A stretch of 49,221 nt of DNA from an uncultured Alphaproteobacteria bacterium. Its GTDB lineage: Bacteria; Pseudomonadota; Alphaproteobacteria; UBA7985; CAJQQZ01. Location: contig CAJQQZ010000099.1 of assembly GCA_905480575.1 (NCBI GenBank), forward strand, positions 1-49,221, given 5' to 3'. The notes below the pieces were generated by a model. The model had not been told where the DNA came from. It saw only the letters and a program-made list of their open reading frames with translations, and ran no database searches. Of this stretch, positions 10,802 to 24,012 are shown piece after piece. A program made the translations under genes and the position numbers. The first letter of the stretch is position 1; every line of letters begins with the position of its first letter.

Positions 10802-12082
10802 TTAACTCTTACGCTTGTATGGATCACTAGCTGCCGCAACAACTTTGCCAGCGCAATCTCCAAAGCCAATGCGATACCCTTCACCTAGAGCGTTCCCGCG
10901 CAGAGTTAAGGTATCGCCGTCTTCGACGAAAGTTCTGCTTATGCCGTTACCAAGATCAATGGGTTCTTTGCCGCCCCAGCTGAGCTCTAACAGTGAGCCG
11001 CGTTCATTTTTGGTTGGTCCTGAGATTGTGCCGGTGCCAAGCAAATCGCCGACTGACATGGGACAGCCGGAGGTGGTGTGATGGGCGAGTTGTTGGGCAG
11101 AAGAAAAATAAAGCTGGTCCATGTTAGTCGCCGAAAGTGTTGTTGCCACAGAGCCCTCCGGTTTCAATTCGACTTCCAAAGCGACGTTGTACAATAAAGG
11201 TTTTGGCTCTACCAAGTGAGGTAGTAAGTCTTTTTCCCTTTCGGGGGTGGAGGTCCTAAAGGGTTCCAACGCTGCTTTGGTGACGATCCACGGGCTTATA
11301 CTGGTTGCTGTTGCCTTGGCTTGGAAAGGGCCGAGAGGGTGATATTCCCAAGCTTGAATGTCTCTCGCTGACCAGTCGTTAAGCAAAACGTAACCGAATA
11401 TGTTGTCGTCGGCTTCCGCCACAGTTATTGGGCCTGATGAGGCGGTTCCAACTATGGCCCCCATTTCCAACTCAATGTCGAACCGTCGACTTGGTGTGAA
11501 GATTGGCGTGTCGAACTCCGGGCTTTTCAATTGTCCCCAAGGGCGTTGAACATCGGTGCCTGACACGACGACGGATGAGGACCGACCATTGTAACCAATA
11601 GGGAGGTGCAGCCAGTTTGGCGGCAAGGGATTTTCGGGGCCTCTCAGCAGAGTGCCTACGTTTGTGGCGTGATGTTTTCCTGAATAAAAGTCGGTATATT
11701 CTGCGACCTTGAGCGGCAGGTGAAGGCGGGCTTTGTCGGCGTCAATCAAGACTTGCTCACGAAGGTGACGGTTGGCGGAGAGGCTGGTTTCTCCGCCCTC
11801 AATAAGCAATTCGACAAGACGCATCCGAAACTTGGACCAAACTTGTGAACCGGCTTCCATCAAAGAATTCCATCGCGCCTCTTGGCACAAGGGAAAAGTC
11901 GTGGCTTTAATGAGGCCCTTTGCTTCCAGTGTAGAAACGTCGAGGATCAGATCACCGATGGCAACGCCGCAACGCGCATCCAGGTCTTTCGTAGAGAAAA
12001 CGCCATAAGGAAGGTTATTCAATGGGAATGGCGTTTCATGAGAATTGGCGCTTTCGACCCAGCTTCTGATCAGCTTTGACAT
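10802..12082 (-). CDS. fahA: Fumarylacetoacetase
   Basis: A 426-residue enzyme that hydrolyses 4-fumarylacetoacetate to fumarate and acetoacetate, the last step of tyrosine/homogentisate breakdown. The N-terminal SH3-like domain is followed by the FAH fold. Metal and catalytic residues are visible: D131 (YTDFYS), H138 (KHHAT), E204 and E206 (FDIELEMG), and D236 with R240 (LNDWSARD). The length is normal for the family. It lies ~50 bp downstream of hmgA on the same strand, so the two form an operon with the TPR gene behind. No maleylacetoacetate isomerase (maiA) gene lies beside it, although the pathway needs that step. Confidence 0.97.
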   Translation of the reverse strand: MSKLIRSWVESANSHETPFPLNNLPYGVFSTKDLDARCGVAIGDLILDVSTLEAKGLIKATTFPLCQEARWNSLMEAGSQVWSKFRMRLVELLIEGGETSLSANRHLREQVLIDADKARLHLPLKVAEYTDFYSGKHHATNVGTLLRGPENPLPPNWLHLPIGYNGRSSSVVVSGTDVQRPWGQLKSPEFDTPIFTPSRRFDIELEMGAIVGTASSGPITVAEADDNIFGYVLLNDWSARDIQAWEYHPLGPFQAKATATSISPWIVTKAALEPFRTSTPEREKDLLPHLVEPKPLLYNVALEVELKPEGSVATTLSATNMDQLYFSSAQQLAHHTTSGCPMSVGDLLGTGTISGPTKNERGSLLELSWGGKEPIDLGNGISRTFVEDGDTLTLRGNALGEGYRIGFGDCAGKVVAAASDPYKRKS

Positions 12083-12133: not shown

Positions 12134-13450
12134 CTATTTTGGCCCTGGCGTACCGTCGAATTTCTTCTCAATTGAAGACCAGCAATCAATATAGTCGTCT
12201 TGCATAGGGGCTTCTTTGGCGGCGAAGGTTGTCAGATGCTGTGGAAACCTTGTTTCAAACATGAAAGACATGGTGTTTTCTAGTTTCGCTGGTTTGAGCT
12301 CTGCATTGGACGCCCCCTCAAAAGCATCGCGATCGGGGCCATGAGGCAGCATCATGTTATGGAGGCTCATACCGCCTGGAACGAAGCCTTCTGGTTTGGC
12401 ATCATATATTCCGTAAATATTACCCATCAATTCTGACATAATGTTCTTGTGATACCAGGGGGGCCGGAAGGTGTTTTCGGCCACGGACCAACGTTCTCTG
12501 AACAGTACAAAATCAATATTGGCGGTTCCCTCTACACCTGATGGAGCGGTCAAAACAGTGAAGATTGACGGATCCGGGTGATCAAAAAGAACGGCTCCGA
12601 CCGGGCAGAATGTTCTGAGATCATACTTCACAGGAGCATAATTACCATGCCAGGCCACAACATCCAGAGGGCTTTGGGCTATGTGAGTTTCATGGAACTG
12701 CCCACACCATTTGATGGTGAGTACACTTGGAACTTCTTTGTCCTCGAACGCCGCGACAGGGGCTTTGAAATCACGGGGATTAGCAAGACAGTTGGCCCCA
12801 ATGGGGCCGCGGTTTGGTAAATCGAACTTTTGGCCATAGTTCTCACAAACAAAGCCTCGAGCTGGCCCTTCCAACAATTCGACACGGTAGACTAAACCTC
12901 TTGGAATGATGGCAATCTCTTTGGGCTCCAGATCAATAATACCTAATTCAGTATGAAATCTGAGACGCCCTTCTTGTGGAACAACTAACAGCTCTGAGTC
13001 TGCTGAATAGAAATATTCGTCAACCATTGACTGTGTGACGAGATAGATGTGGCTGGCCATGCCCACTTGAGTGTTGACGTCACCCGCTGTTGTCATGGTT
13101 CTCATGCCGCTCAGAAAGGTAAGAACTTCGGTTGAATGAGGAACAGGGTTCCATCGATATTGACCGAGGCTTGTGACACTGTCGTCAACTGCTGGAGCGG
13201 TTTTCCAATGCGGTAGATCAATCCTGGCATACCGGCCTGAATGTTTGACTGATGGACGAATACGATAGCACCAAGTTCGTTCATTTTGACCTGCTGGGGC
13301 CGTAAAGGCGGTACCGGAAAGCTGCTCTGCGTAAAGGCCATAGTCACATTTCTGCGGTGAATTCATGCCTTGGGGTAGGGCACCAGGCAAGGCTTCTGTT
13401 TCGAAAGAATTCCCAAAGCCTGGCATGTAGTTTAACGCTGAAGCACTCAT
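12134..13450 (-). CDS. hmgA: Homogentisate 1,2-dioxygenase
   Basis: Cleaves the ring of homogentisate to 4-maleylacetoacetate using non-haem Fe(II). I choose the ATG at 13450 ([14 protein letters not shown]...), which gives 438 residues, the usual length. An upstream in-frame codon at 13507 would add an odd hydrophobic leader. The iron ligands correspond to H334, E340 and H370 ([12 protein letters not shown] and [13 protein letters not shown]). The protein is cytoplasmic and normally a hexamer. It is followed by fahA and preceded by a GlxA-type AraC gene on the same strand. A 19-bp inverted repeat lies 34 bp upstream of the start and is a candidate operator. Confidence 0.97.
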
Positions 13451-13483
13451 TACTCTGTCCAATTTGTTTAGTATTAAGATTAA

Positions 13484-13502
13484 CAAAGTTAGCAGAACTT
13501 TG
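13484..13502. promoter_or_regulatory. Candidate operator upstream of hmgA (inverted repeat)
   Basis: CAAAGTT (13484-13490) and AACTTTG (13496-13502) form a perfect 7-bp inverted repeat with a 5-bp spacer between the AraC gene and hmgA. No T-run follows on the minus strand, which argues against a terminator. A repressor or activator site for the hmgA-fahA operon is the simplest reading; which protein binds is unknown. Confidence 0.4.
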
Positions 13503-13512
13503 GGCAATTTTT

Positions 13513-14538
13513 TTAGCTGTTCAACCCTCTGTCTTCACGAACAAAATCATAAAGAGTTCCTGGCCAAGAAGGAGCAGGCTCTGAGGATGGCCAGGCCTGT
13601 CGGTACAAGCTTGGTTTTTTCCCAAAACATTTTTGAAAGGTGAGAGAAAAATAGGACAGAGAATTGAAACCGCAAGCGACGGCCACTTCGCGGATAGACA
13701 TTGAAGTGGATGTCAGTAAAACCCGTGCGTGTTGCAATCTAACCAATTGTCGAAACTGGACAATGGAACACCCGGTATCACGCTTGAAAATGCGTTCTAG
13801 TTGCCTTTGCGAGATGGAAAGCCGTTCACAAATCTGCGGCACTGACAAAGGGTCTTCAATGTTCTGCTCAATCAGTGAAATTGCGGCTCGGACTTGTTGG
13901 TGAGTGTCCTGGTTTTGATTGTTTGACAGTGTTCTCTGTGGCGCCTCGGCGGGCCTCCTGCCGCAATAGAGCATTTGATTGCCCACCTCGGCTGCAAGAT
14001 CCTCACCGTGATGATCGGCAATCATAGAAAGCATGAAATCAATGCAAGTCATGGAGCCGGCAACTGTATGAAGGGTACGATCGGAGGTGAAAAGTTGTTC
14101 CAGGACCTCAATGTTGGGGAAGGCTTCCGCTAGGCCTGGTTTCCACGACCAATGGGTTGTTGCTCTTTTGTCTGCAAGAAGGCCTGTTTTGGCTAGAGTA
14201 TGAACCGCCATTTCGATTGCTATAAGCGTCTTACCCTGCCGGCTTTGTTTACGCAGCCAACTGAGGCAGCTAGCGTTTTCATAATGCTCTGCCCCCCAGC
14301 TTCCTGTGATCAATATAATGTCAGAAGAAGGCAGTCCCTCTTCGGAAATTGATCTACTGCTTATCGAGAGATCGTTACTGGCGAATACTTCGCTGGAGCT
14401 GGAGGAGCGAAAATCCCATGAATAGAGCGGTGCTGGGGAAAGGTAATTGGCAATCCTCAGCGGTTCAATGCTTCCGGTAACCGTCAGCATATTGAAACGC
14501 GGTATTAAATAGAAACTAAGATGTTTGGGTTCTGACAA
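13513..14538 (-). CDS. GlxA-type AraC family regulator (DJ-1/PfpI domain plus HTH)
   Basis: A 341-residue regulator with an N-terminal DJ-1/PfpI-like domain (~1-190) and a C-terminal AraC double HTH (~225-320). The HTH includes [21 protein letters not shown] and [26 protein letters not shown]. The architecture matches GbdR/CdhR-type regulators of betaine, carnitine and arginine catabolism ([17 protein letters not shown] at the N-terminus is typical). At the usual nucleophile-elbow position the sequence reads [16 protein letters not shown], so there is no catalytic Cys, as expected for a ligand sensor. The start is a TTG at 14538, needed to keep the first β-strand. It begins 3 bp after the methyltransferase/QueC-like gene, suggesting co-transcription. 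Confidence 0.85.
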
Positions 14539-14541
14539 AAA

Positions 14542-15909
14542 CTAGTCCAGTCCAATAGCTCTCCTGCTTTTACAAGTTTTGCACTCTCCACAGGCTTTTG
14601 TTAAGCCATTTCGTTGCACTGGCCGACGGCACCCCCAACTAAATTGCACTAGTTCATGGGGCATCTGGTCTTTTTGGGCGGCTTTTGAGATGAGTTCTCG
14701 GTGAAGGTAGGCGGGAGGATCGAAGGGGAAACTGCCCGCTTCTGCGCAATTTAGAACGTTGCGCCAAAGTGCTGGCCAACCGTTTCCTTCGTCCAAACAA
14801 TGGCCAATTTGCCAGTAGTCCACCGTTTGATTGGTCTTTTGTTGGTATGATTGCGCTGCCAATCCAGCCTCAAACCCCACGGCTGCCAAATCCATGCCGA
14901 AATGGGAAAGCTCATTCCTGTTGGCAGAGGAAGTGGTGTAGTGAAAATCTCGGCAGTTCTTTTTCAGCCAGCCGACAACCTGCTGGCAGGCCAGGTTTTC
15001 GACAAGGCCACGTTCTTCCCTGTTTATCAACTCGACATGATGAGCAATGACCCGCCGCATTGTATTAGCCAAAGCATCCCAAAGGATAAAGATCGAATCT
15101 AACCCACCACTCAACATGACGAGTATGCATTGATCTTGTTCGGTTTTATCAGTCCAAGTAAGCGTGGAGGTTTTGTTAACTCGGCTTAGCTCTAGTCTCT
15201 GATAGCTCATTTGGCCGCTTTCCAAGCCAGAAATTAGGAGCTCCAGTTTGTCTAGGTGGTGTTGAATGTAGCGAGCATGAACAGCTTTGTTACTTAGAAG
15301 GTTTCTACAGCTTTTTAAGAACTCTTCGCTTACATCCTTTCGTGAGTGAGACTTGAGCGAGGAACGACGGACCCCATCTTCCCAGTCACTTTGGTAGAAT
15401 GAAAGCCCCAGAGATTTTGTTAATTCTATATCCCTTGAAAACAAATCTTCAACAATGATGTGGCCGCCGTCGAAAGAAGCACTCTCGATGGCGCACAAAA
15501 GGTTCTCCGCTGAAGGGTGATAGAAGGACGAGCGAATTGAGTATGATTGATCGAATTGTTCGCCTTTGGGCAGTGGTTTCTCGGCACCCCCCTGTTGAAA
15601 GATCAGGTTGGAGCGATAGCGATTGGGGAACAAAGCGTTACAATAGTCAGCTCTATCCTGATCGATCGCTGTCACGCGGGTTTTTGCATTTGCGGGCAAA
15701 GCAATGGCTGCTTGAACGGCCCCGAGTCCCAGCAGCAGAATGGATTGCCGTTCCAAATCAAGAGAAAGATCATGAGGGAAGGGCTTTGAGTCTTGATCTC
15801 TACATTTCTTTAGCTCTTTGACGAGCCAATTGGGGAAATCTTCCTCCGGTGGTTGTTCAGGATTTTCCTTGTGATGGGTCGTAACAACAACAGCTGGTCG
15901 TGCAGGCAT
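14542..15909 (-). CDS. Methyltransferase-like/QueC-like PP-loop fusion protein
   Basis: A 455-residue two-part protein. Residues ~50-160 look like a class I SAM methyltransferase fold: a glycine loop (LLLGLGAVQAAIAL, 58-71), an acidic end of strand 2 (AIDQD) and FDQSYSIRSSFYHP as motif IV. Residues ~258-455 resemble QueC (7-cyano-7-deazaguanine synthase). They have an ATP-pyrophosphatase PP-loop (SGGLDS, 267-272) and a C-terminal zinc knuckle: C427, then C440, C443 and C446 in ACGECKTCKSRR, the QueC arrangement. QueC activates a carboxylate with ATP and converts it to an amide and nitrile. No queC-pathway neighbours (queD, queE, folE) are present, so a specialised role is likely. I know of no described protein with this fusion. 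It is followed 3 bp later by a GlxA-type regulator. Confidence 0.75.
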   Translation of the reverse strand: MPARPAVVVTTHHKENPEQPPEEDFPNWLVKELKKCRDQDSKPFPHDLSLDLERQSILLLGLGAVQAAIALPANAKTRVTAIDQDRADYCNALFPNRYRSNLIFQQGGAEKPLPKGEQFDQSYSIRSSFYHPSAENLLCAIESASFDGGHIIVEDLFSRDIELTKSLGLSFYQSDWEDGVRRSSLKSHSRKDVSEEFLKSCRNLLSNKAVHARYIQHHLDKLELLISGLESGQMSYQRLELSRVNKTSTLTWTDKTEQDQCILVMLSGGLDSIFILWDALANTMRRVIAHHVELINREERGLVENLACQQVVGWLKKNCRDFHYTTSSANRNELSHFGMDLAAVGFEAGLAAQSYQQKTNQTVDYWQIGHCLDEGNGWPALWRNVLNCAEAGSFPFDPPAYLHRELISKAAQKDQMPHELVQFSWGCRRPVQRNGLTKACGECKTCKSRRAIGLD

Positions 15910-15989: not shown

Positions 15990-17303
15990 TTATCGTTCGT
16001 GCCTATTCATGAGCCGCATCCATGTGAGATTTGCTCTCACACCGATATCCATGAAGGGGCGCGGGGGGAAGGAATTTGGCTGTCCCAAAGAATGCATGTC
16101 ATCGATAAGTGGGTTGTCGACCTGGCAAGCCATATCCGCTGCCAGCATGCCCGCAGCCGTTCCCTTCGTGACCCCGACGGCATTTTGGCAAACCGCCGTC
16201 CAGATATTTGGCGCGACCTGGCCAAATCCGGGTGAACCATTGCGGGCCATGGCAACAAAGCCACTCCAAGTATGTTCCATCTCTACATTGGGCAACATAG
16301 GGAAACGGTCGTCAAAAAGCTGCTTGTGTCGCGCTTTCAAAGCCAGTCGTTTGCTCTCGCTTATTTTCTGACCAGGGCAATAGTCGATACCTTCTCTAAT
16401 CAGAATACGATGATCGTTTGTGTAGCGCATGGTGATAGAGACAAAGGCGTTTGCAGGTGTGACACCCCAGGGTTTTTCAACACCGTAGGCTGCGCGCTCT
16501 TCCTCGTTTAACGGACGTGATAGGGATGCATGAGCCACCATGGGCATAATCTTGCCTTGATACTGCCCAAACTGACAGGAGTAGGTGTTGACAGCTAGGA
16601 TCATACGGGGTGCGCGAACAGAGCCACTTGGCGTCGTGGCGAGTATGCCATTTTCCTGCTCCAGCGTTGTCACGGGAGAATGCTCATAAAGAGTTGCGTT
16701 GTTAGGTAAGCTGTCAGCTAAGCCTTGTGTGAGTCCCGCTGGGTTCATCAAAACGCAGTATGGGGTGTAGATAGCTGAATGGAAATGGTCGGTGCCAAGC
16801 TTCTCCTTGCACCCCGCTGCATCAATCCAGGTGAAAGGCTCCACCAAAGCCTCGAGTTCCTTGGCAAAAGGTTCCAGCAGTTCTTTTGATCCTCTAGCGG
16901 AGGAGGCCGTTTGATATTTGCCATCACGTGACCAGTCGCAGTTGATTTCATGCTGCTCCACAGAGGTCTCGAGATAATCGAGAGCCGCTCTTGCTAAGTT
17001 CATGTATCGACGAGAGCCTTCGAGTTCTTCGAGGGTACCCACGATGTGGGGCAGGTCGATACCAAAGCCGGAATTTCTGCCGGAGGCATTCATACCAGAT
17101 TGACCGGCTTCCAAAACGACTACTGATTCATCTGGGCGGTTTTCTGCCAGTCGTCGAGCTGCCGCAAGACCGGCATAACCAGCGCCGATAACGAGCCAAT
17201 CGGCAGCGACGTGATCTTCCAAAGCAGGCTTTGGTGTTCGTGTAGGCAGTATTTTTGACCAGCCGTTTGTTGTGTCTTCTTTGGGGAAGGCCTTGATTTG
17301 CAC
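15990..17303 (-). CDS. FAD-dependent amine oxidoreductase (DAO/PuuB-like)
   Basis: A 437-residue flavoenzyme of the D-amino-acid-oxidase superfamily. The dinucleotide-binding motif is VIGAGYAGLAAARRLAE (residues ~38-54), followed by VVVLEAGQSGMNASGRNSGFG, typical of gamma-glutamylputrescine oxidase-like enzymes. The C-terminal FAD contact NAVGVTKGTAAGMLAADM is present. It probably oxidises a secondary or primary amine to an imine. The GTG start at 17303 follows the cupin stop by 6 bp with GGTAAGG as ribosome-binding site, so the two genes are one operon. That operon is divergent from tetR-mttB, suggesting a shared methylated-amine pathway. Confidence 0.88.
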   Translation of the reverse strand: MQIKAFPKEDTTNGWSKILPTRTPKPALEDHVAADWLVIGAGYAGLAAARRLAENRPDESVVVLEAGQSGMNASGRNSGFGIDLPHIVGTLEELEGSRRYMNLARAALDYLETSVEQHEINCDWSRDGKYQTASSARGSKELLEPFAKELEALVEPFTWIDAAGCKEKLGTDHFHSAIYTPYCVLMNPAGLTQGLADSLPNNATLYEHSPVTTLEQENGILATTPSGSVRAPRMILAVNTYSCQFGQYQGKIMPMVAHASLSRPLNEEERAAYGVEKPWGVTPANAFVSITMRYTNDHRILIREGIDYCPGQKISESKRLALKARHKQLFDDRFPMLPNVEMEHTWSGFVAMARNGSPGFGQVAPNIWTAVCQNAVGVTKGTAAGMLAADMACQVDNPLIDDMHSLGQPNSFPPRPFMDIGVRANLTWMRLMNRHER

Positions 17304-17309
17304 TGAACC

Positions 17310-17657
17310 TTACCCCGCCCAGTTCGCTGGGTGGATTGAGTAGAACAACAAGGCCTTTTCGGACTCGTAGATCAACTCAGTTCCCTTTGGTAACCAGATC
17401 GACTCTCCTGCCTGCGCCGTCAGTTTTTCTTCACCGACATGAATGGTGATTGACCCTTCGATGACCAGAACCATCTCATCATACTTGATTGTCCAGGGGA
17501 TGTGCGCGTTGGACATTCGAACATATCCAGCGCCGAGCTCAGTCGTCTTATCGACTCCACAAACGGGCGCGACCTGTGCTTGCTCGCCATATTCGAAGCG
17601 AGGATTAAAGGTCATGTTTTGTGGCTTGAACACTGATGCAGCGGCTTTAGTGACCAT
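17310..17657 (-). CDS. EutQ-like cupin protein
   Basis: A 115-residue single-domain cupin. The strand pattern KYDEMVLVIEGSITIHVG (near residues 58-75) followed by AQAGESIWLPKGTELIYESE fits the two cupin motifs. Overall similarity is to EutQ-type cupins of ethanolamine utilisation and related amine operons. The usual metal-binding histidines are mostly replaced, so a role as a small ligand-binding or stabilising subunit is as likely as catalysis. GAGGAAG lies upstream of the ATG. It is the first gene of the leftward arm of the divergon, with the FAD oxidoreductase 6 bp downstream. Confidence 0.8.
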   Translation of the reverse strand: MVTKAAASVFKPQNMTFNPRFEYGEQAQVAPVCGVDKTTELGAGYVRMSNAHIPWTIKYDEMVLVIEGSITIHVGEEKLTAQAGESIWLPKGTELIYESEKALLFYSIHPANWAG

Positions 17658-17676: not shown

Positions 17677-17711
17677 TGTCAACTTGACAAAACCATACAC
17701 TGATGTATGGA
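17677..17711 (+). promoter_or_regulatory. Promoter and TetR-type operator of the tetR-mttB divergon
   Basis: A -35-like TTGACA (17684-17689) lies 16 bp before a -10-like TATGGA (17706-17711). The TTGACA is half of a 13-bp palindrome, TGTCAA-C-TTGACA (17677-17689). Between -35 and -10 lies a second inverted repeat, CCATACA-N4-TGTATGG (17693-17710). Two palindromes embedded in the promoter are what a self-regulating TetR repressor would use, and the site is also close enough to control the divergent cupin operon. Confidence 0.55.
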
Positions 17712-17744
17712 AACAGACAACCCTGTATGGGAAAGGATAAAAGC

Positions 17745-18380
17745 TTGAGCAAATCAATCCATCGAACAAAACGCGTCGTGCTAAGCAAAGAGGATTGGGT
17801 AAATGCCGCCTTGGTCGTCTTGGTGTCCGAAGGAGTCTCCGCCGTCGAGATTACCCGTCTGGCCTCAGATCTTACAATGACCAGGGGCAGTTTTTATTGG
17901 CACTTTAAAGATCGTGGAGATCTGCTTGCTTGTTTGATTGACGAGTGGCAGCATCTTAACTCTGATGTCATGGGCAAGGCTTTGGAAGGCTCCTCCAGTT
18001 TAGAAGAAGGCATTCTGGCGCTGTTTTCAGTGTGGGTGGCGGCCGAGCCTTTCAACGCTCAATTGGATCAGGCCATGCGTGATTGGGCCAGGCATTCTGA
18101 GGCTGTCAAAGAAGCCGTTGAAGAGGAAGATGACAAGCGTCTTGCGACCATCAAAGCCTTTTTCGAGCGTCAAGGCTTTGAAGCAACAGAGGCCTTTATC
18201 CGCGCGAGGGTGCTCTATTTCACACAGGTCGCTTATTACGCGCTCGGTGTGGAAGAACCCATGGCGCAACGTTTGTCCTATCTGAAAGAATATTATCGCA
18301 GTTTCACAGGCAGGGAAATCAATCCTGAAACGGCAGAGGCTTACTGTCAGAGCATTTCTCAAAAGGAGAAAGTCGCATGA
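17745..18380 (+). CDS. TetR family transcriptional regulator
   Basis: An N-terminal HTH (VNAALVVLVSEGVSAVEITRLASDLTMTRGSFYWHFKDRGDLL, in shorter pieces) marks a TetR repressor. The rest is the variable helical ligand domain. I choose the TTG at 17745 because AAAGGA lies 7 bases upstream (17732-17737). The in-frame ATGs at 17703 and 17727 have no ribosome-binding site, and the first lies inside the predicted operator and upstream of the likely transcription start. That gives ~211 residues. Its stop overlaps the MttB-like start by four bases (ATGA), so the two are translationally coupled. A small amine or its product is a plausible ligand. Confidence 0.88.
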   Translation: MSKSIHRTKRVVLSKEDWVNAALVVLVSEGVSAVEITRLASDLTMTRGSFYWHFKDRGDLLACLIDEWQHLNSDVMGKALEGSSSLEEGILALFSVWVAAEPFNAQLDQAMRDWARHSEAVKEAVEEEDDKRLATIKAFFERQGFEATEAFIRARVLYFTQVAYYALGVEEPMAQRLSYLKEYYRSFTGREINPETAEAYCQSISQKEKVA

Positions 18381-19924
18381 ACGAGCAAACCAGAACCAGC
18401 CGCAGAGGTCGCAAGCGTCAACAAGATAAGACACAAGCCTCGGGTAACAACACGGCTGTTTACCGTCAGCTCAAACATCCCTATGAGCCTCAAAAGGTTT
18501 TTTCAGACGACGAAGTGCACGCCATTCATGACACGGCGCTCAAGGTTCTAGAAGAACTGGGCATCAAGATCTTGCTCGAGGAAGCGAGATCAATTTTTCA
18601 AGCGGCCGGGGCCAAGGTAGAGCAAGAAAGCCAGATGGTTTTCATCGGCAGAGATATCGTTGAATCTGCCCTCAAGACTGCACCCAAATCAATCAGAATG
18701 CGGGCTCGAAATCTGGAACGTGAACAAGACTATGCGCTGGGCTCAATGCTGTTTGCCCCAGGGGCCGGCTGTCCCAATGTGACGGATCGGTTGAGAGGAC
18801 GTCGGCCAGGTGATCTCGAATCCTATGAAGAAACCCTCAAACTACAGCAGGCCTTTGACGTTATGCATGTCTTGGGGCCATCGTCAGAGCCGCAAGATGT
18901 TCCCATCCAAGACCGCCACTACGCTCAGATGAAATCCCAGATGACCCTCTGCGACAAGCCAATGTTTGCTTATTCGAGAGGCCGCCAACAGGTGGAGCAG
19001 ATCTTTGAATTGCTTCAAACTGGATTGAATTTGTCGTCAGATGACTTTGTGGACGGCAGTTGGGTGTTTACGATCATCAACACGAACTCCCCTCGCTTGA
19101 TTGACAACCCAATGGCACAAGGGGTTATCGATTTTGCGCGTGCGGGTCAAATGTCGATCATTACGCCCTTTTGCTTGTCTGGCGCTATGGCACCGGTGAC
19201 AGTGGCCGGTGCTTTGGTGCTACAGCATGCCGAAGCCTTAGCGTGCATCGCCCTTTCACAATTGGCTAAATCGGGCGCGCCGGTGTCATATGGCGGCTTT
19301 GCTTCAAATGTTTATATGAAGTCTGGCGCTCCTGCTTTTGGCACGCCTGAACATGTGAAATTGGAAATTGGTTCCGGCCAGCTGGCTCGATTGATCGGCC
19401 TACCCTGGCGCACGGCGGCGGGTTCGGCCGGTGTTGCCAATGACATGCAATCCGCAGGCGAGAACCATATGGGACTGTGGGGATCTTTGATGGCGAACGC
19501 TACCGTTTGTGTACATTCTGCAGGTTGGTTGGAAGGCGGATTGACCTTCGGATATGAGAAGTACATCAACGATATAGAGGCGCTGCAAACCATAGCGGAA
19601 CTGTGTAAACCAACCGCTGCTGACTTTGGTGCCCTGGCGTGGGAAGCCTTGTCTGATGTAGAGCCTGGTGGACATTTCTTTGGCACGCAGCACACAATGG
19701 ATCGTTACCAGACGGCCTTCTATGATCCTCTGGTCGCTGATCTGAACAACCACGGGAATTGGGTCGAGGGTGGCTGTGTTGAAGCCCCAGAACGAGCGAC
19801 AAAAGTCTGGCAAAAAACGCTGCAGGAATTTGTGGCTCCGGAAGGTGCCCTTGAAATAGAAGAGCGCCTAGCACCCTACATAGAAAAGAAAAAGGCGGAG
19901 GGTGGCGCTCCGCCTCTGGATTAG
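18377..19924 (+). CDS. Trimethylamine methyltransferase family protein (MttB-like, non-pyrrolysine)
   Basis: A 515-residue member of the MttB superfamily (COG5598). Recognisable stretches include MLFAPGAGCPNVTD, the GAMAPVTVAGALVLQHAE helix and the end-of-barrel GNWVEGG. There is no in-frame amber codon, so it is not the pyrrolysine-containing trimethylamine enzyme. Non-Pyl members that have been characterised (MtgB, MtpB, MtcB) demethylate glycine betaine, proline betaine or carnitine and pass the methyl to a corrinoid protein. No corrinoid protein or methyl-acceptor gene is present here, so the methyl acceptor is unknown. It is coupled to the upstream tetR and divergent from the FAD amine oxidase. 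Confidence 0.88.
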   Translation: MNEQTRTSRRGRKRQQDKTQASGNNTAVYRQLKHPYEPQKVFSDDEVHAIHDTALKVLEELGIKILLEEARSIFQAAGAKVEQESQMVFIGRDIVESALKTAPKSIRMRARNLEREQDYALGSMLFAPGAGCPNVTDRLRGRRPGDLESYEETLKLQQAFDVMHVLGPSSEPQDVPIQDRHYAQMKSQMTLCDKPMFAYSRGRQQVEQIFELLQTGLNLSSDDFVDGSWVFTIINTNSPRLIDNPMAQGVIDFARAGQMSIITPFCLSGAMAPVTVAGALVLQHAEALACIALSQLAKSGAPVSYGGFASNVYMKSGAPAFGTPEHVKLEIGSGQLARLIGLPWRTAAGSAGVANDMQSAGENHMGLWGSLMANATVCVHSAGWLEGGLTFGYEKYINDIEALQTIAELCKPTAADFGALAWEALSDVEPGGHFFGTQHTMDRYQTAFYDPLVADLNNHGNWVEGGCVEAPERATKVWQKTLQEFVAPEGALEIEERLAPYIEKKKAEGGAPPLD

Positions 19925-20973: not shown

Positions 20974-23900
20974 CTATCCCAGGGTTGGGAAATGTGCCTC
21001 GATGTTGTTCTGCCAGAGCCTGGCTTGTTGCTGATTGGCGATCTGCAATGCGGTTTTTGCTTGTCGTTCTGCAAGTTCTGGTTCGTTGTTCTTTTGATGC
21101 AGTAAAGCGCGACAGAGTTTCAAAGGTGCCAAAGCTTGGCTTTCACCCGTAACGGCAACAGTGTTGTCAAAGCGATCCAGCAATTCTTTGGCTTCTTCTG
21201 TTTGTCCGACAAGAATCATTTGTTCAGCGGTGAGTGCAGCGAAAAGGGGTTGCCAGGTCATGAACCCAGTGGCGTTCCAAACGGCCGCCCCTTCTTGCAT
21301 ACGTTTTAGACCTTCCGTAAATTCGCCCCGCTTGCATTCGACCCAACCTTGGCAAAAATTCGACATTGCAACAAATTCAGGAAAACCTTGTGTTTCAGAG
21401 AAACTAAGACTTTCGAGGGAGTAGTGGTCCGCTGCATCCACATCACCGCGCAGCATTGCTGTATTGAAATTTGCCAACATGGCAAATCCCTGCGCGTGAG
21501 GGCGACGAACAAGTTTGGCAAGCTCAAGAGCTTCTTTAGCGTGGTTAGAACCTGCTTCGGTATTTCCAAGTACTGTCTCTGTTAGTCCCAAATAGAAAAG
21601 GCTGAAAACCCCAAACTCTTTCAAGAATGTATTATAGAGATTGCGGTGAATGCTGGGGTCGTAGCGTGTGACCGTTGCTGACAAAGATGTTTTGGCTGAT
21701 AGGTTTTGGCCCTGATGCCAGGCGATGAGACCCCGCATCGTATTAGACGCCAGGTAGGCGGCATCACTAGGGTTCGTAACTAGGATTTCATTGATTTCGT
21801 TGGTCAGTTGACTGGCGGCGTCCAGATCAGCAGTGGCCCATTTGTGAAGGGCACAGTTGTATATGACGGGAACAATCGCGTCGCTGTAATCTTGTTTCTG
21901 AAGCAGTTCTTTCGCCCGCTCTTGCGTCGCGCCAAAGGCAGGATTACCAGGGCCACGTGTGACCATCTGAGTTGGACCTTGAATGGCTTTGATCCGTAGT
22001 TCGATTTGATCTTTCTCGGCTGACTCTGGTAGATGGGCAAGGGCCGAGGAGGCGCGCTCCAAATGGCCAAGTGCCTCGCCCGCGTTGCCACCGGCCACTG
22101 CTGTCATCGTAGCACGAAGCAGCCATTCAATGGCTGATTTATGGTCGGCGCCCTGCAAAAAGTGCTCTGCAACGACCTCTTCAGCCACCGGAGATTTGTT
22201 ATGGGTTCTGACAAAATGGTTAGCGATTTCCAGGTGCAGTTGACGCCGCCGATCTCTCCTGAGCGAAGCGTAAATGGCATCTCTCACCAACGCGTGTTTA
22301 AAAAGATAACGATTGAGCTCGGCGTGTGTGCTGTCAAGATGAATGAGTTGAGTTTTTTCCAATTCTACAACAGCGTCGGTCGCAAGTTCGTGGCTGTAAC
22401 CCGTGAGGTGTTTGACGAGTGGTTGATCGAAATGTCGCCCGATCGTAGACGCCGTTAGCGCAAAATGCCGGGCTGTGACTTCCAATCGATCAAGTTTGCT
22501 TTGAACCAGACCACCAATAGTAAGGGGTATGTCGCCAGCCTTCAGGTTCTTGCCTTGCGCAACGGCCTGTTGAGCCATCTCCGCATACTCTTCAATGAAC
22601 AGCGGAACACCATCTGACTTTTGCAGGATGGTTTTAAAGACGTCTGAGGGAAGGCCACTTTGCTCCACAGAGAAGCTAGCAAGTTCCGCGCATTCCTCAT
22701 CGGAAAGTTTTTCAAGTTTCAGGTTATCGTAGTCTATTGCACTGTCGGCATATCTCGAGTTGGGTCTTGTCGTCAAAAGAACAAAGGCCGAGGTCCGTTC
22801 TGCTTTAGCCACCAAATAGCTGATGAACTCCTCGGAACTAGGGTCAATCCAATGTACATCTTCAAAAATGATGACTAGATTGCGATTACCCGCTGCTGAC
22901 CTGAAAACGATATCGGTGAGCGTCTGAAAAGCCAAGCGTCTTCGCGCTGGTACGGAAACATTTTCATCCGCTTCTTCGCCAGATCCCAAAGGCGAAAGCA
23001 GGTCAAGGAGAAGAGGAAGTTCAGTTTCGTTGGCACCCCAGACCTGTGAGAAAAGCTGGCTAAGCTTTTTATGGCGCGCTTCTGGTTCGTCACGGTTGTT
23101 TACACCTGCAATCCACTCCAGATATTCTTTGACCGGATGAAGCGCTGTACCGCCATGTTCAGGAGAACACTGCAACATGAAACTGCGGCAGTTCTCGAGC
23201 ACGTCATGGCCTTGGAATTCATTAACGAGCTTTGATTTCCCCATGCCAGCTTCGGCAACAAGAATAAAGGCGCGTCCCTGTTCGATTTCGCTGCGGCGGT
23301 AGCTATCAATCAACTGTTGCATTTCATTTTGGCGCCCGACAAGGGGGGCTTGCTTCTTGCCGCGCAAGGCATCAAAGCGATAGGTCACGCCGGTTTTCTG
23401 TCGTCGGACTTTGAAAACTTGTTGGTCGCCGGAGAAGCCTTTCAGATGTTGAGGCGGCAGTTCTACAAAGTCAAAGTAGTCGCCGACCAGTTTTTTGGTT
23501 TCTGAGCAAATCAGAACAGTATTTGGTTCGGCTAGGCTTTCCAGACGTGATGCTTTGTTAAGGCAGGGGCCGACGAAGTTTTCGCCGAAATCACCGGTCT
23601 GTCCCTGGATAATGACCGAGCCAGAAGCGATCCCTATCCTGGTCTCGATAGGACTGTCCAGGATAGGAATCTTTAGTTGTTCGAGTTTTTTCAGAATGGC
23701 CAAACCTGTGGAAACGGTTCGATGGCTGTCATTCTCACCGCTATTGGGGTAGCCAAAATAGCAAACTAATCCATCACCGCGGTATTGAGCGACTTGCCCG
23801 TTTTGCCCGCGAATCGCCTCATTACAAGCAGAATAGAACAGTCGCAGAACTTCGGAGAAATCTTCTGGACCCAGATCCTCTAACATCGTAGTCGAATTTA

Positions 23901-24012
23901 CTAAATCAGCGAAGAGAACGGTGATTTGTCGTTGTTCGGAAAGGGGTTCGTCGCCAGCTGAAACAACTGACGACGAGGTAGGTTGAGATAGACTAGTTTT
24001 TTTAGTGGACAT
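20974..24012 (-). CDS. Class III cyclase-AAA ATPase-TPR signalling protein
   Basis: A 1012-residue multidomain protein. Residues ~28-200 are a class III cyclase domain with both metal aspartates (D36 in FADLV, D80 in YRGDG) and the N152/R156 pair. The adenine-selecting Lys is Gln76 and the matching Asp is missing, so substrate choice is uncertain. Residues ~225-500 are an AAA/STAND-type ATPase (Walker A AEAGMGKS at 253-260; Walker B VIIFEDVHWID at ~380-390). The C-terminal ~400 residues are TPR-like helices. This layout resembles large adenylate-cyclase/LuxR-like ATPases that sense by oligomerising. The start overlaps the end of the cytochrome-like gene, so translation is coupled. Confidence 0.88.
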   Translation of the reverse strand: MSTKKTSLSQPTSSSVVSAGDEPLSEQRQITVLFADLVNSTTMLEDLGPEDFSEVLRLFYSACNEAIRGQNGQVAQYRGDGLVCYFGYPNSGENDSHRTVSTGLAILKKLEQLKIPILDSPIETRIGIASGSVIIQGQTGDFGENFVGPCLNKASRLESLAEPNTVLICSETKKLVGDYFDFVELPPQHLKGFSGDQQVFKVRRQKTGVTYRFDALRGKKQAPLVGRQNEMQQLIDSYRRSEIEQGRAFILVAEAGMGKSKLVNEFQGHDVLENCRSFMLQCSPEHGGTALHPVKEYLEWIAGVNNRDEPEARHKKLSQLFSQVWGANETELPLLLDLLSPLGSGEEADENVSVPARRRLAFQTLTDIVFRSAAGNRNLVIIFEDVHWIDPSSEEFISYLVAKAERTSAFVLLTTRPNSRYADSAIDYDNLKLEKLSDEECAELASFSVEQSGLPSDVFKTILQKSDGVPLFIEEYAEMAQQAVAQGKNLKAGDIPLTIGGLVQSKLDRLEVTARHFALTASTIGRHFDQPLVKHLTGYSHELATDAVVELEKTQLIHLDSTHAELNRYLFKHALVRDAIYASLRRDRRRQLHLEIANHFVRTHNKSPVAEEVVAEHFLQGADHKSAIEWLLRATMTAVAGGNAGEALGHLERASSALAHLPESAEKDQIELRIKAIQGPTQMVTRGPGNPAFGATQERAKELLQKQDYSDAIVPVIYNCALHKWATADLDAASQLTNEINEILVTNPSDAAYLASNTMRGLIAWHQGQNLSAKTSLSATVTRYDPSIHRNLYNTFLKEFGVFSLFYLGLTETVLGNTEAGSNHAKEALELAKLVRRPHAQGFAMLANFNTAMLRGDVDAADHYSLESLSFSETQGFPEFVAMSNFCQGWVECKRGEFTEGLKRMQEGAAVWNATGFMTWQPLFAALTAEQMILVGQTEEAKELLDRFDNTVAVTGESQALAPLKLCRALLHQKNNEPELAERQAKTALQIANQQQARLWQNNIEAHFPTLG

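Follow-up and report, generated by a model that had tools for sequence, protein, structure and literature searches.

We find that a single gene in the window (the whole 49,221-nucleotide stretch of alphaproteobacterial DNA analysed here) encodes two domains in one protein, with a class I methyltransferase-like domain at the N-terminus and a QueC-like PP-loop domain at the C-terminus (Table 1). A first-pass annotation of the DNA had proposed such a fusion; the 455-residue open reading frame is real and is encoded on the minus strand, not the plus strand, with an orthologue in another species of the same genus, and the SGGLDS loop and four cysteines (C427, C440, C443 and C446) all lie at the positions it had named. 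Profile and predicted-structure matches identify the C-terminal half, with weaker matches for the N-terminal half, and the observation of a fused QueC-like and methyltransferase-like protein is confirmed.

The gene forms part of a run on one strand, in the order cupin, DAO oxidoreductase, fusion, GbdR-like regulator, hmgA and fumarylacetoacetase, with gaps that are mostly short, and the sister-species contig retains the same order from oxidoreductase to fumarylacetoacetase. Given that promoter and terminator scans performed at chance level, the case for an operon is one of gene spacing and synteny only, from which we infer that the gene is co-expressed with the clustered cupin, oxidoreductase and regulator genes. 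The window locus itself is devoid of exporter, RTX and virion genes, and a host-genome scan for HlyC gave no match, although its control gave none either. The regulator, a relative of the choline regulator GbdR, has a 54% paralogue in the host genome (G000:C20:58000-70767, L113) beside probable carnitine-catabolism genes, whose identities were assigned by eye from translations. The earlier suggestion was that the fusion is coupled to a GlxA-type regulator that may sense its product; synteny of the two genes is conserved, and product sensing is an argument from that synteny only. Divergent from the cupin end, a TetR regulator and an MTTB-family gene (trimethylamine methyltransferase superfamily) occupy 17703-19924 on the plus strand, and a 1012-aa protein encoded on the minus strand at 20974-24012 looks like a nucleotide cyclase that also has ATPase and repeat regions.

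Table 1 Coordinates of the fusion gene, its putative domains and motifs, and its neighbours in the window
Feature	Position	Strand	Remarks
Whole gene, 455 aa, methyltransferase-like / QueC-like	14542..15909	-	ATG at 15909; sister-species orthologue 59% identical
N-terminal half, residues 1-254	15148..15909	-	PF13649 below cut-off; predicted Rossmann topology; 46% identity to sister; dN 0.47
Class I methyltransferase-like core, about residues 54-156	15442-15750	-	
Putative SAM glycine loop, residues 58-71	15697..15738	-	Not kept in sister species
C-terminal QueC-like PP-loop domain, residues 255-455	14545..15147	-	PHROG 1550; 75% identity to sister; dN 0.19
SGGLDS ATP-pyrophosphatase loop, residues 267-272	15094..15111	-	S, G, G and S invariant in 32-sequence alignment
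His-His pair, residues 290-291	15037..15042	-	Family-specific; near position of canonical YxQxHxxE
Cys knuckle C427...C440xxC443xxC446, with family-specific WxCRxP	14572..14631	-	Cys invariant in alignment
EutQ-like cupin, first gene of run	17310..17657	-	PF06249, E 2.1e-17
FAD-dependent (DAO) oxidoreductase, upstream	15990..17303	-	PF01266, E 1.6e-49; adjoins gene in sister too
GlxA/GbdR-type AraC regulator, next gene, 3-nt gap	13513..14538	-	NF052371 GbdR-like, below cut-off; DJ-1/PfpI + HTH_18
Homogentisate 1,2-dioxygenase hmgA, downstream	12134..13507	-	TIGR01015; kept in sister species
Fumarylacetoacetase, downstream	10802..12082	-	TIGR01266; kept in sister species

Judged from its sequence, the C-terminal half belongs to a divergent branch of the QueC family that occurs in phages and marine bacteria. 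The best profile match of this half is to PHROG 1550 ('QueC-like', E = 6e-15), while the PF06508 score of the protein (20.6 bits) is just below the cut-off of 22, and that for TIGR00364, which describes canonical QueC, is far below (11.7 bits vs a cut-off of 150.3). The predicted structure of this half (pLDDT mostly > 90) finds its best viral match in gp16 of phage Muddy (TM 0.83 by target length) and aligns with B. subtilis QueC 3bl5 at TM 0.57; other PP-loop enzymes, which share the ATP-pyrophosphatase fold, are also among its structural matches, and a PDB sequence search yielded nothing beyond weak nitrile-synthetase matches. The residues conserved in PHROG 1550 (SGGxDS, HH, RxxxE, WxCRxP and four cysteines) are all shared by the window protein. 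Among 70 family members, SGGxDS is kept in 66 domain sequences, the HH pair in 64, the cysteine-knuckle pattern in 63 and WxCRxP in 62, and the knuckle is a probable zinc site. Conversely, the motifs YxQxHxxE, VPxRN and YPDC, defined as those of canonical QueC (PMC13329287), each occur in 0/70, and the true QueC of Aestuariispira carries all three.

Family scans recovered 26 bacterial loci and > 40 viral locus matches, the latter including some contigs counted twice. Within the class the family is rare, occurring in 3 of the 385 alphaproteobacterial genomes sampled, one of the three being the host genome itself; a plasmid search by protein query gave no match, and an initial genome-contig scan with the window protein as single query gave no relative. 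In our tree, the window protein is placed together with phage members, on a long branch in a mainly alphaproteobacterial group that also holds RTX-associated members. Altered catalytic loops are seen in individual relatives: the first of two Aestuariispira fusions (L007:7942-9600) carries SGGVSS instead of SGGxDS, which suggests that one copy is inactive, and a Sneathiella protein (L026:7341-8612) contains two QueC-like domains, the first with SGGAKS.

The N-terminal half matches PF13649 below the cut-off (E = 0.004, 18.2 bits vs 27), and its counterpart in the sister-species orthologue has no Pfam methyltransferase match at E <= 0.01. Modelling predicts a class I Rossmann topology with modest confidence, and the top PDB matches of the model are all class I methyltransferases, yet true methyltransferases were present in the alignment behind the model and possibly shaped it, and these matches are not independent evidence. 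The putative glycine loop at residues 58-71 reads LLLGLGAVQAA (with GLGAVQA) in the window protein, but is not conserved in the sister species (LLFGQNQIHCA, with GQNQIHC); both proteins retain the acidic residue that follows beta-2 (AIDQD/AIDCD). The halves also differ in constraint, with 46% identity to the sister species in the N-terminal and 75% in the C-terminal half, and dN of 0.47 vs 0.19, such that the former evolves about 2.5 times faster (dS is saturated). Loss of the glycine loop in the sister species and the faster evolution of the methyltransferase half lead us to interpret this half as probably degenerate in this genus. The first-pass proposal that the protein combines carboxylate activation with methyl transfer consequently fares unevenly: the unusual PP-loop enzyme stands, whereas methyl transfer in this lineage is unsupported. 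A viral scan with the N-terminal half by itself returned no match, and profile-profile comparison of this half with methyltransferase domains of other proteins and with methyltransferase-like phage proteins was uninformative, given that even true methyltransferases did not match one another.

The pairing itself recurs elsewhere, with the methyltransferase motif intact. Both domain types are fused in three genera of one other alphaproteobacterial family, namely Aestuariispira, with two copies in tandem, and Hwanghaeella, where Pfam methyltransferase scores exceed the cut-off, and a third genus, where the glycine motif is intact, while in Denitrobaculum a separate methyltransferase gene adjoins the QueC-like gene. 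On viral contigs, the commonest recurring neighbour is a 135-169 aa 'LGMTKEL' protein (12 loci), which we read as methyltransferase-like and which, where tested, matched neither Pfam nor PHROG; next comes a 'DIPxLGGYL' protein (9 loci) that has a weak methyltransferase match. Many of these viruses are relatives of one another, so the counts are not independent. The AU test (p = 0.39) provides neither support for nor grounds against the idea that all methyltransferase-QueC fusions arose once.

In several Alphaproteobacteria, family members lie beside a type I exporter (T1SS), HlyD, a HlyC-like acyltransferase and giant proteins, with RTX repeats confirmed in Denitrobaculum and Hwanghaeella, and in phages family genes adjoin major tail, portal, capsid, head-protease or fibre genes. 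An ATP-grasp ligase adjoins the QueC-like gene in PIS136 and in a viral relative. Across the family, such neighbours suggest that these enzymes modify large proteins destined for export or for virions. Among individual loci, QueC-like genes occur near a large protein at L035, L040 and L041, with a match to a sortilin/Vps10-type propeller in one, and L040 contains two units of QueC-like gene plus large protein; cytochrome P450-like genes were also read by eye inside two export clusters (L019:2959-5693, L023:2640-3968).

Canonical QueC converts CDG, a queuosine precursor, to preQ0. In the host genome, which is 99.8% complete, we detected no match above cut-off to canonical QueC and no match to QueD, in agreement with the earlier remark that the gene lies away from queuosine genes. 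Canonical QueC was likewise not found above cut-off in 10 order-mates, nor in Denitrobaculum, and QueD was found neither in five order-mates nor in Denitrobaculum and Sneathiella, both of which carry QueC-like family members; QueD is present in Aestuariispira, Roseovarius and Hwanghaeella. Given that the host and the order-mates checked are without canonical QueC and QueD, CDG is an unlikely substrate of the window enzyme. The host could in principle import CDG, and our genome searches for the pathway covered QueC and QueD.

Comparison with known systems reveals both shared and divergent features. PHROG 1550, annotated as 'QueC-like queuosine biosynthesis' and represented by Mycobacterium phage Muddy gp16, has SGGxDS, HH, WxCRxP and the Cys knuckle in common with the window protein, yet its phage members are single-domain proteins of about 185-275 aa, to which the window protein adds a methyltransferase-like half, and 'queuosine' in its name is an annotation label and not an assayed function. 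Canonical QueC (PF06508 cluster 1, TIGR00364) shares the PP-loop fold, SGGxDS and a C-terminal CxxCxxC knuckle, but the latter is spaced C(x)8CxxCxxC as opposed to C(x)12CxxCxxC in the window protein, which is without all three canonical motifs. TtuA, LarE, NcsA, the ArtA nitrile synthetase and YcfA have the same ATP-pyrophosphatase fold as the C-terminal half, but other metal or FeS sites and substrates, and weak or no sequence similarity. Cap9 (type IV CBASS) and QatC (Qat) are QueC-family enzymes turned from base synthesis to protein modification, of which Cap9 retains canonical CDG-site residues and QatC has a motif set of its own (PMC13329287). The one QatC motif scanned occurs in 0/70 family members, and the window protein has no match of usable strength to QatC (profile NF041925, 12.1 bits vs a cut-off of 280) or to the PADLOC QueC model. 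Among the scanned neighbours, neither a CD-NTase nor the qatA, qatB and qatD partners are present (the genes there are unrelated), as the first reading of the locus had also found, and with partners and motifs absent and profile scores low we reject membership of Qat or CBASS. A literature search found no description of a QueC-like protein fused to a methyltransferase, and no such fusion is mentioned in a 2026 survey of the PF06508 superfamily (PMC13329287); the assertion that this chemistry was undescribed has to be narrowed, in that the PP-loop family was already catalogued as PHROG 1550.

Several explanations may be considered for the function of this protein. That it is a canonical QueC with an accidental extra domain could be argued from PF06508 similarity, yet 0/3 canonical substrate motifs are present and the TIGR00364 score is far under its cut-off, making this close to impossible; queuosine synthesis is effectively refuted by the sequence. 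A protein deazaguanylase that attaches CDG to a protein N-terminus, as QueC-family enzymes such as Cap9 or QatC do or are proposed to do (PMC13279940, PMC11996544), would have this precedent in its favour, together with the protein genes that adjoin relatives of the window gene. However, the CDG-facing motifs are absent, usable matches to QatC or the PADLOC QueC model are lacking, QueD was not found in the host, Denitrobaculum or Sneathiella, nor canonical QueC in the first two, and we consider such an activity highly improbable.

An unlikely, if less remote, explanation is a bifunctional enzyme whose QueC half amidates a small acid and whose N-terminal half methylates the same molecule, with the adjacent regulator sensing the product: the intact glycine motifs of the Aestuariispira, Hwanghaeella and third-genus fusions, the retained acidic residue after beta-2 and the regulator synteny conserved in the sister species are in keeping with this, but the sister orthologue has lost the glycine loop and has no Pfam methyltransferase match, and the N-terminal half is under less constraint. 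A small-molecule amide synthetase acting in quaternary-amine or amino-acid catabolism, with no protein target in this genus, is a plausible though doubtful alternative. The same-strand run, which is shared with the sister species and comprises the cupin, DAO oxidoreductase, GbdR-type regulator and homogentisate genes, points in this direction, as do the regulator paralogue by probable carnitine-catabolism genes and the MTTB-family gene on the plus strand just beyond the cluster; the closest homologues of the enzyme, however, reside in export/modification clusters and not catabolic ones. Moreover, a catabolic role is a narrower form of the explanation that we prefer, and not its opposite.

The explanation that we prefer, in which our confidence is about evenly divided, is that the clustered gene encodes an ATP-dependent, CDG-independent amide-forming enzyme with an N-terminal half of lost or reduced catalysis. 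The C-terminal half would adenylate a carboxylate other than CDG, a chemistry inferred from the PP-loop fold (some PP-loop relatives, such as TtuA and LarE, are sulfurtransferases), and would then transfer the activated carboxylate to ammonia or an amine, yielding an amide. Across the family, natural substrates would probably be supplied by neighbouring enzymes, and the acceptor may often be a large exported or virion protein, whereas in the window genus the N-terminal half would probably serve to bind substrate or a partner, and the gene would be expressed with the conserved cupin, oxidoreductase and regulator cluster. The idea of a protein acceptor is carried over from relatives of about 36-40% identity, and the acceptor here could be a small molecule, a role that fits the catabolic-type operon found locally no less well.

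Considered over the family as a whole, retention of the catalytic loop, loss of the CDG-site motifs, the RTX and phage neighbours, and hosts of which some are seemingly without CDG synthesis together point to a chemistry outside both known uses of QueC. We tentatively suggest, while regarding it as rather unlikely, that QueC-derived ligases widespread in phages and bacteria join a non-CDG acid to large proteins that are exported or built into virions, frequently in partnership with a dedicated methyltransferase, the window gene being a fused member of this group. Protein modification by QueC-family enzymes has lately been demonstrated in anti-phage defence, and the present family points beyond that use; if true, QueC-derived attachment of a non-CDG acid to exported or virion proteins would constitute a protein modification not yet described.
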